A stretch of DNA of 64,000 nucleotides from Pseudomonas sp. FP1742 (GTDB taxonomy: Bacteria > Pseudomonadota > Gammaproteobacteria > Pseudomonadales > Pseudomonadaceae). The notes below the pieces were generated by a model. The model searched no databases. It saw nothing but the letters and a program-made list of their open reading frames with translations, and was not told where the DNA came from. Both the position numbers and the translations under genes were made by a program. The stretch is from positions 4,898,001 to 4,962,000 of the forward strand of contig NZ_CP117460.1 in assembly GCF_030687145.1 (NCBI RefSeq), in the 5' to 3' direction. Position 1 is the first letter of the stretch. Every line of letters begins with the position of its first letter. Shown here in pieces: positions 32,680 through 39,807 of the stretch.

Positions 32680-33678
32680 TCAGAGCAACCCATCACTCTC
32701 GGGCAACTCATACTCCGTCGCGACCTTACCCGAACCACTCAACCTCCCCGGTTTGCTCAAGGTCGGCTCCTTCTCCAGGCATTCCACCAGATAGTCGATG
32801 AACACCCGTAACTTGGGTGGCAGATAGCGGGTGGGCGAATGCAGCAGCCAGGCGCCTCCGTGGTAGGACGCCAGGAAGGTCCAGTCCGGCAATACCTGCA
32901 CAATCAGCCCCTGTTCCAGCGCATAACGGGCCGTGAAGTACGGCAGGCTGCCGATGCCGATGTGCTGCAATACCGCGCCCAGTCGCACGCCTGTGTGATT
33001 GGCGGCATAACGTCCGCGCACGCCGACGGTGACGGCTTTGCTGCCTTTCTTGAATTTCCAGCGCGCATCGCTCGGGGTTTCGCCCAGATAGATGCAGCTG
33101 TGGTTGAGCAAGTCGTGGGGATGAGTCGGTGTGCCGTGCTCGGCCAGGTACTGCGGCGTGGCGCAGAGCAAATGATCGATGGTCAGCAGCTGCCGCCCCA
33201 CTAGCCCCGCGGGCGGGCGATCGGTAATACGGATGGCCAGGTCGACATTGTCGTCGATCAGGTCCACCTGACGGTCCTCGAGTAACAACTCCACATCCAC
33301 CTTGGGATAACGCCGCAGAAATTCCGGCATATGCGGATGAATCACGAATCGCCCCACAGCCTTGGGCACGCTGACTCGTACCAGCCCTTGCGCTTCATGG
33401 GTGAACTGACCGCTGATTTCCATCACCGACTTCGCCGCGCTGACCATTTCCTGGCAACGCTTGAACACCTCTTCACCCCCATCGCTCAGGCGCAGCTTGC
33501 GCGTGGTTCGTTGCAGCAAACGCGTGGCAAGTGCCTTCTCCAGACGCGAAATGCTGCGACTCACCGCCGAGGGGGAAGACCCCAACTGGCGTGCCGCTTC
33601 GGAGAAACTGCCGGTCTCGACAACCTTGACGAAAATCGCCATTTCACCGAGCAGCGGCAGGGGAAGATTTATGCTCAC
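32680..33678 (-). CDS. LysR-family transcriptional regulator
   Basis: DNA-binding regulator of 332 residues. N-terminal winged helix at residues 10-68 (EMAIFVKVVETGSFSEAARQ, then SPSAVSRSISRLE), and a C-terminal LysR substrate domain. It is divergent from the AlaX-oxygenase-LysE operon with only 90 bases between them, the classical position for a regulator of the opposite genes. The co-inducer is unknown. Confidence 0.92.
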   Translation of the reverse strand: MSINLPLPLLGEMAIFVKVVETGSFSEAARQLGSSPSAVSRSISRLEKALATRLLQRTTRKLRLSDGGEEVFKRCQEMVSAAKSVMEISGQFTHEAQGLVRVSVPKAVGRFVIHPHMPEFLRRYPKVDVELLLEDRQVDLIDDNVDLAIRITDRPPAGLVGRQLLTIDHLLCATPQYLAEHGTPTHPHDLLNHSCIYLGETPSDARWKFKKGSKAVTVGVRGRYAANHTGVRLGAVLQHIGIGSLPYFTARYALEQGLIVQVLPDWTFLASYHGGAWLLHSPTRYLPPKLRVFIDYLVECLEKEPTLSKPGRLSGSGKVATEYELPESDGLL

Positions 33679-33708
33679 AGCGCAACAGTCCTTTGATGTT
33701 TGAACGGA

Positions 33709-33737
33709 TTATCACGCAATTCCACGGTTCATATAAT
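33709..33737 (+). promoter_or_regulatory. Sigma-70 promoter of the AlaX-oxygenase-LysE operon
   Basis: TTATCA (33709-33714), 17-base spacer, perfect TATAAT (33732-33737). A short leader leads to AAGGG 8 bases before the AlaX ATG. It lies in the divergent LysR/AlaX gap, so LysR control is likely. Confidence 0.65.
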
Positions 33738-33768
33738 AAAAATAGAAACTTTAATAAGGGCATGGAAT

Positions 33769-34395
33769 ATGACGCTTCGCCTCTTTTTCCATAGTGATGA
33801 CCTCAAGGCCAATGTGGAAGTCCTGGATTGCACGCCCCATGAAAACGAGTTCGCCGTGGTGCTGCGCGCCACACTGTTTCATCCCCAAGGGGGAGGACAA
33901 CCCTGTGACACCGGCTGGATCGGCGAAAGCCAGGTGCTGCGCGTGGTTCAGGACCCGGACCGGATCATCCATTTCGTCGACCATCCGGTAAAACTCGGCA
34001 TGATCCAGATTCGGGTCGACGAGCAACGCCGCCAGTTCAATACGCGCATGCATTCGGCGGGGCACCTGATCGGTCATTTCGTCCAGGCCCTGGGCTGGAT
34101 GCCGATCAAGGCTCATCACTGGCCGGATGAGGGGCGTGTGCAATTCAAACCGCTCGATGGCGCGCAGGACGTTGATGCCCAGACGATTCAGTACGGCATC
34201 AAGCAATGGATCTCCCACGACCTGCCGCGCCTGACGTCGTTGCGCGAAGGCGCCCGTGAAATCGGTTTCGGTGAACTGCCCGCCTACGGCTGCGGCGGCA
34301 CCCATGTACGTAGCCTGAAGGATTTGGGCACGGTCACGATCGCTTCCCTTTCACAGAAAAAGGGAACGCTGTCAGTCCACTACCACGTGGATTGA
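33769..34395 (+). CDS. Alanyl-tRNA trans-editing protein, AlaX type
   Basis: Stand-alone editing domain that hydrolyses mischarged tRNA, in known cases Ser- or Gly-tRNA(Ala). It has 208 residues, so it is the medium AlaX form without a C-Ala domain. The glycine-rich motif FHPQGGGQPCDTG is seen, and the zinc and catalytic residues are HSAGH (HxxxH) and the C-terminal CGGTHV. The ATG at 33769 is supported by AAGGG upstream; the frame is open further upstream. It is the first gene of a unit with an Fe(II)/2OG oxygenase and a LysE exporter. Confidence 0.9.
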   Translation: MTLRLFFHSDDLKANVEVLDCTPHENEFAVVLRATLFHPQGGGQPCDTGWIGESQVLRVVQDPDRIIHFVDHPVKLGMIQIRVDEQRRQFNTRMHSAGHLIGHFVQALGWMPIKAHHWPDEGRVQFKPLDGAQDVDAQTIQYGIKQWISHDLPRLTSLREGAREIGFGELPAYGCGGTHVRSLKDLGTVTIASLSQKKGTLSVHYHVD

Positions 34396-34487
34396 GCATT
34401 TGGGCGATGTCGACCCCGTCATCGCCTGACGCCGGGGAGCCTGCGTTCGCGGGCTTTATTGACTCTCTGATAGATGGACCTGAGAAC

Positions 34488-35258
34488 ATGATGCTTGACG
34501 TCGAGCGTCTCGATGAGACGTGCATAAAAAAACTGGCCAACGAAGAAGTCCTCGCCGTCCGCCTCAGAGGCTTGTTGCCGCAGCCACTGGCGATTCAGAT
34601 CGGCGACAAGATCCTCGCCCCGGGCTTTGAAGGCTATATCAACGCACCGAGCATCGGTCGTATCGGCATGGCGTTTTATGAAGCGGAAAACCAGCCGCTG
34701 CTGATCGAAGACTATTTCGAACGCGCCACCAGCAACATCGCCGAATTGCGCAGCCGTTGTGCGCCCTACTCCTCGCCTGTCGACACCCTGCGTTGCATGC
34801 TCGACGAATCCTGGCCGGCGGGGGCGCACCTGGAAAATCTCTATGGCCGCAAGATGTATGTGGGCCTGTCCCGGGTGGTCAAACCCGGGGTGTGCTTTCT
34901 CGCCCATCACGACATTTTCGCCAAGGACGCCCCGGACAGCTTCCAGGCCAAAAGCCTGGAAGCGCAGTTCGCCTGCAACGTCTACCTGAACATGCCAACC
35001 GAGGGTGGCGCGTTGCAGATGTGGAACCACGACATTTCCCCGGACCAGTTCGACGAGATGCGTGGCGACAGTTACGGCATCGACCCGGCCTTGCTCGGCC
35101 CTCCGACCCTGGAGATTCGCCCTGAGCCGGGCGACTTCATCATGTTCAATTCGCGCCGCATGCACTCGGTGACCCCAGGTGTGGACGATCCGCGATTGAG
35201 CCTTTCTTTTTTTGTCGGCTATCGCGGCAATGCTTCCCCCCTGACTTTCTGGAGTTGA
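34488..35258 (+). CDS. Fe(II)/2-oxoglutarate-dependent oxygenase
   Basis: Predicted non-haem iron dioxygenase of 256 residues. The metal triad is complete: H140 and D142 in AHHDIF, H226 in RRMHSVTPG, with R236 (DDPRLSLSFF) placed to bind 2-oxoglutarate. The family hydroxylates or otherwise oxidises small molecules, often amino acids. The start is uncertain: ATG 34488 (MMLDVERLDE) fits the domain edge, but in-frame starts at 34392 (TTG, overlapping the AlaX stop) and 34407 (ATG) would add 32 or 27 residues. It lies one base before lysE. The substrate is unknown; the neighbours suggest an amino acid. Confidence 0.82.
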   Translation: MMLDVERLDETCIKKLANEEVLAVRLRGLLPQPLAIQIGDKILAPGFEGYINAPSIGRIGMAFYEAENQPLLIEDYFERATSNIAELRSRCAPYSSPVDTLRCMLDESWPAGAHLENLYGRKMYVGLSRVVKPGVCFLAHHDIFAKDAPDSFQAKSLEAQFACNVYLNMPTEGGALQMWNHDISPDQFDEMRGDSYGIDPALLGPPTLEIRPEPGDFIMFNSRRMHSVTPGVDDPRLSLSFFVGYRGNASPLTFWS

Positions 35259-35259
35259 G

Positions 35260-35898
35260 ATGTTTTCGAATTACCTGGGCGAGTTTCTGGCGCTGGCAAC
35301 GATCCATTTTCTGGCCGTGGTCGCCCCCGGACCGGACTTCGCCGTGACCATCCGCCAAAGTGTGCGTTTCGGGCGTTTAGTGGGCATCTGCACCGCACTG
35401 GGCATTGGCGCGGGCATTTCCGTACATGTGCTGTACACCTTGCTCGGCGTCGGTGCATTGATGCATACAACGCCCTGGTTGTTGACGGTGGCCAAGGTGG
35501 TCGGGGGGGCCTACATTCTGTACCTCGGCGTGAGCCTGTTGCGCAGCAAACCCAAAGCGGCCATTGACGGCGACAAGGATGCAAAAGCGCCAGATGAGCA
35601 GCAGACCTTGCTCAAGGCCTTCAGCACAGGGTTTCTGACCAACGCCACCAACCCCAAGGCCACGCTGTTCTTCCTGGCGATCTTCACCACCATCATCAGT
35701 GCCTCGACACCGCTGCAGATTCAGGCGCTGTACGGGCTGTGGATGTGTTTCGTGAATGCCTTGTGGTTCGTGATCGTGGCGCTGTTCTTTTCCAGCGCCC
35801 GGGTGCGACTGCTGTTCTTGCGCATGGGGCACTGGTTCGAACGAACCATGGGGGTGATCCTGATTCTGTTCGCTGGCCGGTTGATTCTGTCGATGTAA
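35260..35898 (+). CDS. LysE-family amino acid exporter
   Basis: Inner-membrane exporter of 212 residues with about six helices. The LysE/RhtB motif AVVAPGPDFAV is near the N-terminus, and SLLRSK and NPKATLFFLAIF in the second and third segments. It starts one base after the oxygenase stop, with GGAG overlapping the end of that gene, so it is translationally coupled. The family exports basic, neutral or non-protein amino acids. Confidence 0.92.
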   Translation: MFSNYLGEFLALATIHFLAVVAPGPDFAVTIRQSVRFGRLVGICTALGIGAGISVHVLYTLLGVGALMHTTPWLLTVAKVVGGAYILYLGVSLLRSKPKAAIDGDKDAKAPDEQQTLLKAFSTGFLTNATNPKATLFFLAIFTTIISASTPLQIQALYGLWMCFVNALWFVIVALFFSSARVRLLFLRMGHWFERTMGVILILFAGRLILSM

Positions 35899-35901
35899 AA
35901 C

Positions 35902-35934
35902 AAACGGCCCGCCAGTCTGACTGGCGGGCCGTCG
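35902..35934. terminator. Strong hairpin between lysE and oprD
   Basis: Fourteen-base-pair stem ACGGCCCGCCAGTC with its complement around one T. A TTTGTTTT tract follows on the minus strand, so it best serves oprD and may also stop the lysE transcript. Confidence 0.8.
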
Positions 35935-35963: not shown

Positions 35964-37205
35964 TTACCAAAGCGCCAGGGTATAGCTGACGATCAAGCGG
36001 TTCTCATCCAGATCATTGCCGAAGTTCGAACGCACTGATGCGTTGCGCCATTTAAAGCCCAGGCCTTTCAACGTGCCGTCCTGCACCACGTAGGCGATAT
36101 CAGTGTTGCGCTCCCACTCCTTGCCTTCACCCGGAGCACTGCGCTGCACGTTATCACCCGAGATGTAGCGGGTCATAAAGCTCAACCCCGGCACGCCCAA
36201 TGCGGCGAAGTTATAGTCATAGCGCGCTTGCCAGGAGTGTTCGTCAATGTTGGCGAAGTCACCGATCTGCACGAAGTTGACCAGATACGGATCGCTGCGC
36301 CCAATATACGGAAACGGATCGTCGCCGCTCATGCGCTGATAACCCAAGCCCAGTGCGTGGCCGCCGAGGCTGTAGGTAAACAACGCACCGAAAGCCTGGT
36401 TATCGAGCGCACGAAAGTTGCCATCTTCGGTGCTGCGCGCATAACGCACGTCGCTCTTGAGCGACTGGCCGGCCCCCAGATCCAGCAGGTGCACGAATCC
36501 GAGGTAGTTTTGCTGGTAGATATTTTCCAGCTTGCCGTAGCGGTACTGCGCCGTCAGGTTCGGCAGGAACTGATAGTCAGCCCCGGCGAACTGGAACTTG
36601 TCGCTTTGCCCGCCGATGCGATTGGCGGTCATGTCCTGGTAGTCGGTGGAATCGACAAAGTTGATCTGCGTGAGTTGCCCGGCGGTCAGCTTCAATCGGT
36701 CAACTTCCTGAACGTTCACCAGTGCCCCCTTGAACGTTCCTGGCAACAAACGCGTGTCGTTGGAGCTCACCACCGGATCCTTGATCTGCAACGTTCCCAG
36801 CTTCAGGGTGCTGTTGGACAAACGCACTTTGGCCGTCAGGCCCAACTCGCCATAGCGATCCTGTGAGCCGCCCGACAAATCCGGCGGCAACAGATTGGTG
36901 CCCGCCGTGCCGCCCCCGGAGTCCAGTTTGAAACCGGCCATGCCCAGGGCATCCAGACCAAACCCCAGCGTGCCAGCGGTATACCCGGACTCCATCCGCA
37001 GCAGAAAACCCTGCGCCCATTCCTCGGCCTTTTCACGCGAGCCGTCCTGGCGGAAATCGCGGTTGAAGTAGAAGTTGCGTGCCTCCAGGCTGCCTTTACT
37101 GTCAGCAATGAAATCCGCCTGCGCGGCCGGTGCGCCGAGCAAGCTCAAGCCGAGCAATGTGCCGACCGGGATGTACAACCGTTGAGTAGAAAGCGAAACG
37201 TTCAT
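35964..37205 (-). CDS. OprD-family outer-membrane porin
   Basis: Substrate-specific outer-membrane porin of 413 residues, a single-chain 18-stranded barrel by family. A signal peptide covers residues 1-30 (ending PAAQA), followed by the conserved DSKGSLEARNFYFNRDF start; the chain ends VSYTLALW. Family members take up basic amino acids or small organic acids. It lies 117 bases after the MFS carrier on the same strand, so the two probably form an uptake path across both membranes. Confidence 0.92.
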   Translation of the reverse strand: MNVSLSTQRLYIPVGTLLGLSLLGAPAAQADFIADSKGSLEARNFYFNRDFRQDGSREKAEEWAQGFLLRMESGYTAGTLGFGLDALGMAGFKLDSGGGTAGTNLLPPDLSGGSQDRYGELGLTAKVRLSNSTLKLGTLQIKDPVVSSNDTRLLPGTFKGALVNVQEVDRLKLTAGQLTQINFVDSTDYQDMTANRIGGQSDKFQFAGADYQFLPNLTAQYRYGKLENIYQQNYLGFVHLLDLGAGQSLKSDVRYARSTEDGNFRALDNQAFGALFTYSLGGHALGLGYQRMSGDDPFPYIGRSDPYLVNFVQIGDFANIDEHSWQARYDYNFAALGVPGLSFMTRYISGDNVQRSAPGEGKEWERNTDIAYVVQDGTLKGLGFKWRNASVRSNFGNDLDENRLIVSYTLALW

Positions 37206-37322
37206 GCCGTGCTCCTGTTACAGGCGCGAGCGAGCCCTCTCGGGGGCGTGGCGATCGCGACCGATATGTCGATTAGCCGTGGATCAGCGACGTCCGGGCA
37301 GAATTGCCCAGACGTGTCGGGT

Positions 37323-38618
37323 TCAGGACTCGAGTTGGCGACCGCGGGTTTCCGGCAGGCTTAATGCGGCCAGAATCACCACGCCATAGGCACCGGCAGC
37401 GAAGATTCCGATCCCCGTACCAATGGGCAACGTTTCACTCAGCGCCCCAATCAACAATGGAAACAGCGCGGCGATGGAGCGCCCGGCGTTATAGCAAAAG
37501 CCCTGGCCCGAACCGCGCATGCGGGTCGGAAACAACTCGGTCAGGAATGCCCCCATGCCAGCGAAAATACCCGAGGCAAAGAAACCCAGCGGAAAGCCCA
37601 GCCAGAGCATCCAGGTGTTATCGATGGGCAGTCGGGTGTAGGCCAGAACGATCGCCATGGAGCCGACGGCAAACAGGATGAAGTTCTTTTTTCGGCCGAT
37701 GGCATCGGTCAGCAACGCGCTGGTCACATAGCCGATGTAGGAGCCGACGATCACCATCGCCAGATAGCCGCCAGTGCCGAGTACGCTCAGGCCGCGTTCG
37801 GTTTTCAGGTAAGTCGGTAACCATGTGGTGATCGCGTAATAACCGCCCAGTGCGCCGGTGGTCAGCAACGAAGCGCGCAAGGTGGTACTGAGCATCCGTG
37901 GCGCGAAAATTTCGAAGAAGGCCCAACGCGAATCCTTCTGCGGCTTGGCCTTGCGCTCGATACAGGCCTGCTCGAAGGTGTCCGACTCCTTGACCAGTCG
38001 GCGGATCACCAATACAAACAACGCAGGCACCAACCCGATCATGAACAACGCCCGCCAGGCCTCTTCCGGCGGCAGAAAGCTGAATAGCCCGGCATACAGC
38101 AAAGCCGTCAGCCCCCATCCCAGCGCCCATCCCGCCTGCACCATGCCCACGGCCTTGCCGCGATCCCGGGCGCGAATCACCTCGCCGATCAGCACCGCGC
38201 CCGCGGTCCATTCGCCACCGAAGCCAAACCCCATCAGAGTCCGGGCCACCAGCAGTTGCTCGTAGTTCTGTGCCAGTCCGCAGAGGAAGGTGAAGAACGC
38301 GAACCACAACACCGTCAGTTGCAAAGTCCGCACCCGGCCGATGCGGTCGGACAGTATTCCGGCGACCCAGCCACCCGCCGCCGAAGCCAGCAGCGTGCAG
38401 GTGCCGATCATTCCGGCTTCGCCCCTGGAGATGCCCCAAGTGGCGATGAGGGTAGGAATGACGAAACTCAGCATCTGGGTGTCCATGCCATCCAGGGCAT
38501 AGCCGATCTTGCAGCTCCAGAAGGTGCGCTTTTCATTTTTCGACAGGGGGCCGTACCAACTGAACGGGCCGGTGCGGCCCGAACCTGAAAGTACGTGGTC
38601 AGTCATGGTCTTTTCCAT
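37323..38618 (-). CDS. MFS metabolite:H+ symporter
   Basis: Inner-membrane carrier of 431 residues with twelve predicted helices. MFS signatures: DGMDTQMLSF in helix 1, the loop GILSDRIGRVRTL between helices 2 and 3, and a related TDAIGRKKN in the second half. It resembles organic-acid carriers of the AAHS/SHS type. The ATG at 38618 has AGGA 7 bases upstream; another ATG is four codons on. It is followed by oprD, and is divergent from a LysR regulator. Confidence 0.9.
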   Translation of the reverse strand: MEKTMTDHVLSGSGRTGPFSWYGPLSKNEKRTFWSCKIGYALDGMDTQMLSFVIPTLIATWGISRGEAGMIGTCTLLASAAGGWVAGILSDRIGRVRTLQLTVLWFAFFTFLCGLAQNYEQLLVARTLMGFGFGGEWTAGAVLIGEVIRARDRGKAVGMVQAGWALGWGLTALLYAGLFSFLPPEEAWRALFMIGLVPALFVLVIRRLVKESDTFEQACIERKAKPQKDSRWAFFEIFAPRMLSTTLRASLLTTGALGGYYAITTWLPTYLKTERGLSVLGTGGYLAMVIVGSYIGYVTSALLTDAIGRKKNFILFAVGSMAIVLAYTRLPIDNTWMLWLGFPLGFFASGIFAGMGAFLTELFPTRMRGSGQGFCYNAGRSIAALFPLLIGALSETLPIGTGIGIFAAGAYGVVILAALSLPETRGRQLES

Positions 38619-38859
38619 GGGAGTTCCTGCGGCAGCAAGCGAAGATGACGGACACGCCTCTTTATTTTTTTATGAAGGCGTTGTCGTGGGGAACGGACGC
38701 AGTGACCTGCGTCGTGGAGCAGATTCTTCGTGCCGGAGCCAAACGGCGTCAAACGGGAAAAAAACGAGGCTATGCATAAGAAAATTTGATACCCCCGGCG
38801 ACGAACTCTGGAGTAACAATTGCAATGCGCCGAACACTTATTTTTGCGGGAGAACCGCT

Positions 38860-39807
38860 ATGAACCTCAAGTTCCTCGAAACCTTCGTCTGGGTCGCCCG
38901 CCTGCAAAGCTTCAGCCTCACCGCAGAGAAAATGTTCAGCACTCAGGCCGCTATCTCCAGCCGGATTGCCTCTCTGGAAGAAGAGTTGGGTCTGCGTTTG
39001 TTCGTGCGCGATTCGCGCGGGGTGTCGCTGACACTCGAAGGTCTCAAGGTGCTCGACTACGCCGAGCAGATGCTCGAGGTTCAGCGAGCGCTGAAACACT
39101 CGCTGGACAACACCAACCCGCAACAGGGGCTGGTGCGCATCGGGGTGATGGATACGGTGATCCACACCTGGCTCAGCCCGTTGATGTCGACCCTGATGCA
39201 GACCTTCCCCGCCGTGGAAATCGAGATCACCGCCGACGCCGCGCGCAATCTGTGCGAGCAACTGCAAAAGGGCTATCTGGACATCGTTTTCCAGACAGAC
39301 CTGATCCGCCACGAGAGCGTGCGCAACCTCGAACTGGGGCACTATCCCATGCACTGGATCGCCGCCAGCAATTCAATCTATGCCCGCCCCTATGCTTCAC
39401 TGGCCGAAATGGCCAGTGAGCGCATCATCACTTTCGTTAAAAATTCCCGGCCGCATCAGGATGTACTCAACCTGCTGCACGCCCATGGCATCAATACTCC
39501 ACGCGTCAGTTGCGTCAACTCGGTGTCGGCCATGACCCGGCTGATTCGTGACGGCTTCGGGATTGGCGCCTTGCCGGCCGCGCTGGTGGCCAAGCCCTTG
39601 GCCAGTGGCGAGCTGATTCAGCTGGAGCCGGGTACCCGCTTGCCGCAACTGGATGTCGTGGCTTCGTGGCGTGCCGGAGTCGGCCTGGAGTTGATCGAGA
39701 GCATCATCGACATGAGCCGCCAGGTGGTCAGCCAATACGCGGCGGATGTCGGCCCGCTTCGAATGGTTCCGACGCCCGGCCTCAACAGCCGACGGCCCGT
39801 TGAATAA
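38860..39807 (+). CDS. LysR-family transcriptional regulator
   Basis: Regulator of 315 residues, starting at ATG 38860 ([15 protein letters not shown]); the frame is open upstream, but the helix-turn-helix begins here ([20 protein letters not shown] at residues 17-36). The C-terminal substrate domain contains [13 protein letters not shown]. It is divergent from the MFS-oprD unit across 241 bases and followed by the UPF0317 gene, and probably controls both. Confidence 0.9.

Follow-up and report, generated by a model that had tools for sequence, protein, structure and literature searches.

The window, a 64-kb stretch of DNA, holds a short unit in which alaX, a gene for an Fe(II)/2OG oxygenase, and lysE face a divergent lysR; all four genes were confirmed (Table 1). 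The host genome, which its named relatives place in Pseudomonas, is a single contig of 6.67 Mb, in which the oxygenase gene is single-copy. As the first-pass annotation had described, one base separates the oxygenase stop (35258) from the lysE start (35260), and the LysR gene lies on the opposite strand facing the unit. The oxygenase likely starts at 34488, because the close homologues listed are most often 256 aa long, and this start leaves a 92-base gap after alaX.

Table 1. Features of the alaX unit and its surroundings in the window
Feature	Position	Strand	Remarks
LysR-type regulator gene	32680..33678	-	PF00126/PF03466; divergent from the alaX unit
Conserved GGATTATC, candidate LysR operator	33706..33713	+	between lysR and alaX; overlaps the -35
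Sigma-70-type promoter TTATCA-17-TATAAT	33709..33737	+	10/12 matches
alaX, freestanding SAD-type aminoacyl-tRNA deacylase	ATG 33769 to stop 34395	+	208 aa
Fe(II)/2OG oxygenase	34488..35258	+	256 aa; WelO5/SadA fold; HxD...H and 2OG arginine
LysE-family exporter	35260..35898	+	212 aa; nearest the threonine/homoserine (RhtB/RhtC) branch
Terminator-like hairpin 3' of lysE	35903..35933	reported on minus strand	

The promoter proposed in the first pass is present. A promoter scan found one site compared with 0.7 in shuffled sequences, which taken alone is no better than chance; of 26 upstream regions that were aligned, 25 keep the TTATCA hexamer. Among 80 loci with a divergent LysR, 77 carry the candidate operator GGATTATC ahead of alaX, unit and orphan loci alike, and the other three comprise one variant and two mis-anchored starts. 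A hairpin scan of the region found four structures compared with 2.5 expected. By eye, positions 35964-39807 of the window, after the unit, contain porin-like and MFS genes (minus strand) and a second LysR-like gene (plus strand). The porin-like and MFS genes were found in only some relatives.

AlaX matches the Pyrococcus AlaX of PDB entry 2e1b (E 1.7e-12). The HSAGH and CGGTH motifs that had been read in it are there, and the zinc site of H-x3-H plus C-x3-H (H95, H99, C175, and H179) is invariant in 22/22 sequences (alignment A4). The protein scores below the curated cut-offs of NCBIfam AlaXM (NF040865; 68.7 against 300) and tRNA_SAD (PF07973; 21 against 24), and for this reason its tRNA may differ from tRNA-Ala; the Acinetobacter johnsonii member scores 36.6 for tRNA_SAD. 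The oxygenase has the WelO5 (PF22814) fold, with a score of 18.1 against a Pfam cut-off of 27; a homologue, P0011, reaches 30.9. The H-x-D...H motif and 2OG arginine noted at first reading correspond to H140-x-D142, H226, and R236, which are invariant in 56 sequences (alignment A3). In the iron site of halogenases, Gly replaces the iron-binding Asp. Our oxygenase retains this Asp in H140-x-D142 and therefore lacks the WelO5 halide site; a WelO5 G166D variant is named among the structure entries. Its score against the HilA L-isoleucine dioxygenase model (NF041274) is 22.5, far under the cut-off of 500. BesD lysine halogenases were absent from the seven PDB sequence matches and from the best 50 of each of two further listings, and a kinship with them may still exist. 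LysE passes the PF01810 gathering score (122.6 against 25.6) and falls under the cut-off for the threonine/homoserine efflux family TIGR00949 (156.4 against 183.95).

Adjacency in related genomes, which the first-pass annotation had set beforehand as the test of its proposal, held in every Pseudomonas genome examined and was seen again outside the genus. The counts of 57 and 115 given here are taken from draws of 249 Pseudomonas genomes. In such a draw, 71 genomes had an oxygenase match, which was close in 57 (at least 537 bits; next match 169). A unit-type alaX lies at most 300 bases from the close oxygenase in 57/57 of these genomes, and the order LysR, alaX, oxygenase, lysE is unchanged in 80/80 named Pseudomonas loci, across all of which LysR is 90-98% identical; species may overlap between the 57-genome and 80-locus sets. 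Given this conservation (every one of the 57 genomes and 80 loci), the four-gene set is not accidental. In one unit genome, G034, either mutation or sequencing error has broken the alaX next to the oxygenase into two frames.

Outside Pseudomonas, the order alaX-oxygenase-lysE was found with LysR in another genus of the host family (L114/L158; oxygenase 65% identical) and with no adjacent LysR in an Enterobacterales genus (L113/L156, oxygenase 68% identical, and L265). A Photobacterium megaplasmid (L131) keeps the gene order with its oxygenase over two frames, and a second Photobacterium replicon (L129) carries a more broken copy. On a 6,362-bp MOBP plasmid of Acinetobacter johnsonii, the three-gene unit is the only annotated cargo beside the mobilization genes. 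Plasmids of equal length that carry the unit are recorded in both A. johnsonii and Achromobacter xylosoxidans (NZ_CP068209.1 and NZ_CP068212.1; L127/L134), through either spread or cross-contamination; because both are FDA-ARGOS strains, we counted them as one observation. Overall, the oxygenase is rare: in the phylum draw, 9 of 398 genomes had a match (four of them close), and in the order of G538, 6 of 295 did (one close).

The first-pass annotation had described a unit of three genes. Their linkage in Pseudomonas stood, and the fixed number did not, since LysR-alaX alone is common among the loci that lack the oxygenase. The close oxygenase is absent from 58 of the 115 Pseudomonas genomes with a unit-type alaX (best AlaX match at least 152.8 bits; among the matches listed, the next scores 102.6 bits and represents the second fragment of the interrupted G030 copy). 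We read all 58 orphan neighborhoods over about 3-4 kb per side. A lone alaX with a divergent LysR was found in 48, and five more also keep the unit-type lysE, so that LysR is divergent and adjacent in 53/58. In two others, the LysE is a different one and the regulator is of the AraC type (L188 and L199, a second regulatory design), and three have neither LysR nor lysE, one of these being a halogenase cluster. Of the 58 orphan AlaX copies, 7 were aligned, and all of these retain the zinc-site residues; the orphan copies of G106 and G030 are interrupted. LysR-alaX forms the stable core of the unit in Pseudomonas. The absence of the oxygenase from half of these genomes would fit a rule by which producers need immunity and the immune need not produce.

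An AlaX tree of 88 rows was built by a quick method without bootstrap and has several long branches; it includes 25 unit loci only, and L114, L205, and L207-L210 were left out as second copies of kept loci. On this tree, the oxygenase state changes at least nine times, with at least five changes forced by branches with SH-aLRT of at least 95. Some orphans branch within groups of unit loci and 35 others form their own clade, so not every orphan need be an oxygenase loss. In the Enterobacterales genus, L272 (G893) keeps alaX and lysE, but its oxygenase is a stub of 67 aa. A deletion in L270 extends across alaX and the oxygenase, and L273 retains lysE, pieces of the oxygenase, and part of alaX on the opposite strand. 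L266 (G883) has the oxygenase and lysE with no adjacent alaX; the same genome carries an AlaX-EamA pair at another locus (L296). On the whole, one gene for production and one for immunity would be expected to give this pattern. Two exceptions, L266 and G034, could reflect protection in trans or sequencing error. Separately, four loci of an Enterobacterales family (L191-L193 and L297) have a lone LysR-alaX pair, which by eye lies close to carA/dapB-like genes in L191 and L297, and the genome G904 carries both a lone pair and a full unit.

AlaX also accompanies other oxidizing enzymes. Distant oxygenases (28-35% identity) again adjoin alaX in a different order: L121, whose oxygenase is interrupted, and L122 read oxygenase-alaX-lysE, and L130 and L135 read oxygenase-alaX. 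The AlaX label requires three changes on the oxygenase tree (29 rows). SyrB2-type halogenases provide a further association. Eighteen halogenase loci were read of 36 matches, and the selection was not random: G056 and G139 were chosen for a nearby AlaX match, and G031 and G538 had led to the halogenase. AlaX occurs in 6 of the 18, and none lies within about 5 kb in the other 12. The L190 halogenase matches SyrB2 at E 2e-132 and CytC3 at 2e-119 (L190/L205 and L200/L207 are paired labels of halogenase clusters), and all six AlaX-associated SyrB2/CytC3-type halogenases have the HQA iron motif. Four clusters combine AlaX and the halogenase with an A domain, EamA, and a thioesterase (L205, L300, L301, and L207, the last with its A domain split over two frames), and two combine them with an A domain, a thioesterase, and a LysE-family exporter (L298 and L299). 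A LysE relative is found near the halogenase without AlaX in L308 and L309. The adenylation specificity positions of L205, L300, and L301 read D-F-W-N-I-G-M-V/I-H, which we take to be the threonine code; SyrB1-like neighbors in L310/L311 read D-F-W-S-V-G-M-V-H, and L298/L299 differ (D-A-F...). The AlaX halogenase clusters would yield a chlorinated amino acid in free form; for L205, L300, and L301, the simplest candidate is a chlorothreonine. No role for AlaX there is apparent to us except immunity.

The oxygenase family itself is not tied to AlaX, since alaX was not found at the loci read for its sister clade (33-36% identity; eight rows with 100/100 support on the oxygenase tree). At 13 of the 14 Pseudomonas loci in this set (L136-L147 and L149) and at 4/4 loci tested in the Enterobacterales genus (L267-L269 and L271), the neighbors of these sister oxygenases are a protein related to a divergent cyclodipeptide synthase and an MFS transporter; PF16715, the family of the synthase relative, was detected in L136. 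The remaining Pseudomonas locus, L148, has an oxygenase relative by an NRPS-like protein with adenylation, carrier, condensation, and reductase-type domains (5.9-11.9 kb), and a short-chain dehydrogenase also lies nearby by eye.

Taken together, we propose that the unit is probably a compact antimetabolite system that oxidizes an amino acid, exports the product, and uses AlaX for immunity. The kinship of its fold and its LysE partner suggest that the oxygenase would hydroxylate an amino acid that is free or bears only a light modification. Threonine, or an amino acid resembling it, is a possible but doubtful candidate substrate. The product would mimic a small amino acid, be loaded on tRNA, and damage translation. 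AlaX, with its intact zinc site and the genetics described above, may hydrolyze the mischarged tRNA and so protect the producer, and LysE would export the product. The LysR regulator, acting through the conserved GGATTATC region, may turn the unit on upon sensing the compound or a precursor. That the unit makes, edits against, and secretes such a compound had been proposed in the first pass. This logic is strengthened by the lone LysR-alaX loci and by AlaX in the SyrB2-type halogenase clusters; the substrate, the toxicity, and the tRNA remain putative.

A detoxification cassette would contain much the same genes. LysR would sense a toxic amino acid from the environment, AlaX would clear the tRNA, the oxygenase would neutralize the compound, and LysE would expel it. 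We regard this as unlikely, though as a serious competitor. A unit that is the only annotated cargo of a small mobilizable plasmid (6.4 kb) fits a resistance cassette; however, bacteriocins too have small plasmids that combine production, immunity, and export. LysR adjoins the lone alaX in relatives, and CtdA sets a precedent in Pseudomonas for a standalone editing protein by a canavanine-degradation operon (PMC10018355, in the part available to us). It is mainly the asymmetry and the halogenase clusters that count against detoxification. Lone alaX is common, whereas a single locus, L266, showed the close oxygenase with no alaX next to it, against complete linkage in Pseudomonas (57/57), and an A domain, a halogenase, and a thioesterase are biosynthetic company for AlaX.

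The product might instead be harmless, with the oxygenase and LysE yielding an exported signal or osmolyte-like hydroxyamino acid and AlaX averting a minor translation error. In the available part of their report, the authors on the Hil operon propose signaling roles for hydroxyisoleucines besides antibiotic ones (PMC3684760). We consider this improbable for our unit because 48 of the 58 orphan genomes keep LysR-alaX alone, which makes little sense unless a harmful compound comes from outside. Still more remote, in our judgment, is a pathway in which the WelO5-like oxygenase acts on aminoacyl-tRNA and AlaX serves as a thioesterase-like releasing esterase, so that a secreted amino acid would be made on a tRNA template free of carrier proteins. 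The alaX linkage in 57/57 Pseudomonas genomes would suit such a pathway, as would the cyclodipeptide synthase relative beside the sister oxygenases, cyclodipeptide synthases being a class that uses aminoacyl-tRNA. However, alaX without the oxygenase is common, the halogenase clusters own a thioesterase yet carry AlaX, the L266 oxygenase has no adjacent alaX, and the nearest fold, WelO5, works on small molecules according to structure entry titles.

If the antimetabolite reading is true, AlaX proteins, which are mostly annotated as general quality control, include dedicated self-immunity genes, and the lone LysR-alaX loci would confer resistance to a compound that neighbors make. Many relatives keep AlaX and its regulator only, as though the immunity had been retained and the weapon lost. 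Small amino acids would then support an ecology of producer, immune, and sensitive strains like that of colicins. The unit would point to one new natural product, and alaX next to an oxidizing enzyme and an amino-acid exporter would offer a search handle for antimetabolites, both hydroxylated and halogenated.

Several known systems resemble the unit in part. From AlaX trans-editing proteins such as Pyrococcus 2e1b, with which it shares the SAD-type editing family and the H-x3-H and C-x3-H motifs, our AlaX differs by its dedicated operon partners, its LysR neighbor, and its low AlaXM score. The oxygenase is 16-18% identical to the halogenases WelO5 and Wi-WelO15 and the N-substituted amino-acid dioxygenase SadA, and has HxD. 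The SyrB2/CytC3 clusters share Fe/2OG enzymes in amino-acid pathways, an exporter, and, in 6/18, AlaX; they carry an A domain and a thioesterase and hence would use carrier-bound chemistry, unlike the window unit. For the Hil operon (hilA/hilB) and the IDO operon of Bacillus thuringiensis, an antimicrobial product with self-detoxification has been argued, and both have a LysR regulator, a PF13640 dioxygenase acting on a free amino acid, and an amino-acid exporter; in the available part of that report, the gene list includes a reductase and an RhtA or MFS exporter and no AlaX, and Hil has tandem PF13640 and PF10014 dioxygenases where our unit has one, neighbored by alaX and lysE (PMC3684760). 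The canavanyl-tRNA deacylase CtdA is likewise a standalone editing protein against an antimetabolite, encoded by the compound's operon in Pseudomonas; it differs in its B3/B4 fold, its tRNA-Arg substrate, and its degradation operon, for which the available text mentions no oxygenase or LysE (PMC10018355). The AMB cluster has a LysE-type exporter and two Fe/2OG oxygenases but uses NRPSs, with no AlaX among the five genes given in the portion available (PMC4357302). In the literature searched, we found neither an AlaX protein as an immunity part nor the orphan-immunity pattern. Judged by its genes, therefore, the unit would belong among the amino-acid antimetabolite operons, with AlaX as the immunity part and the orphan pattern as its new element.
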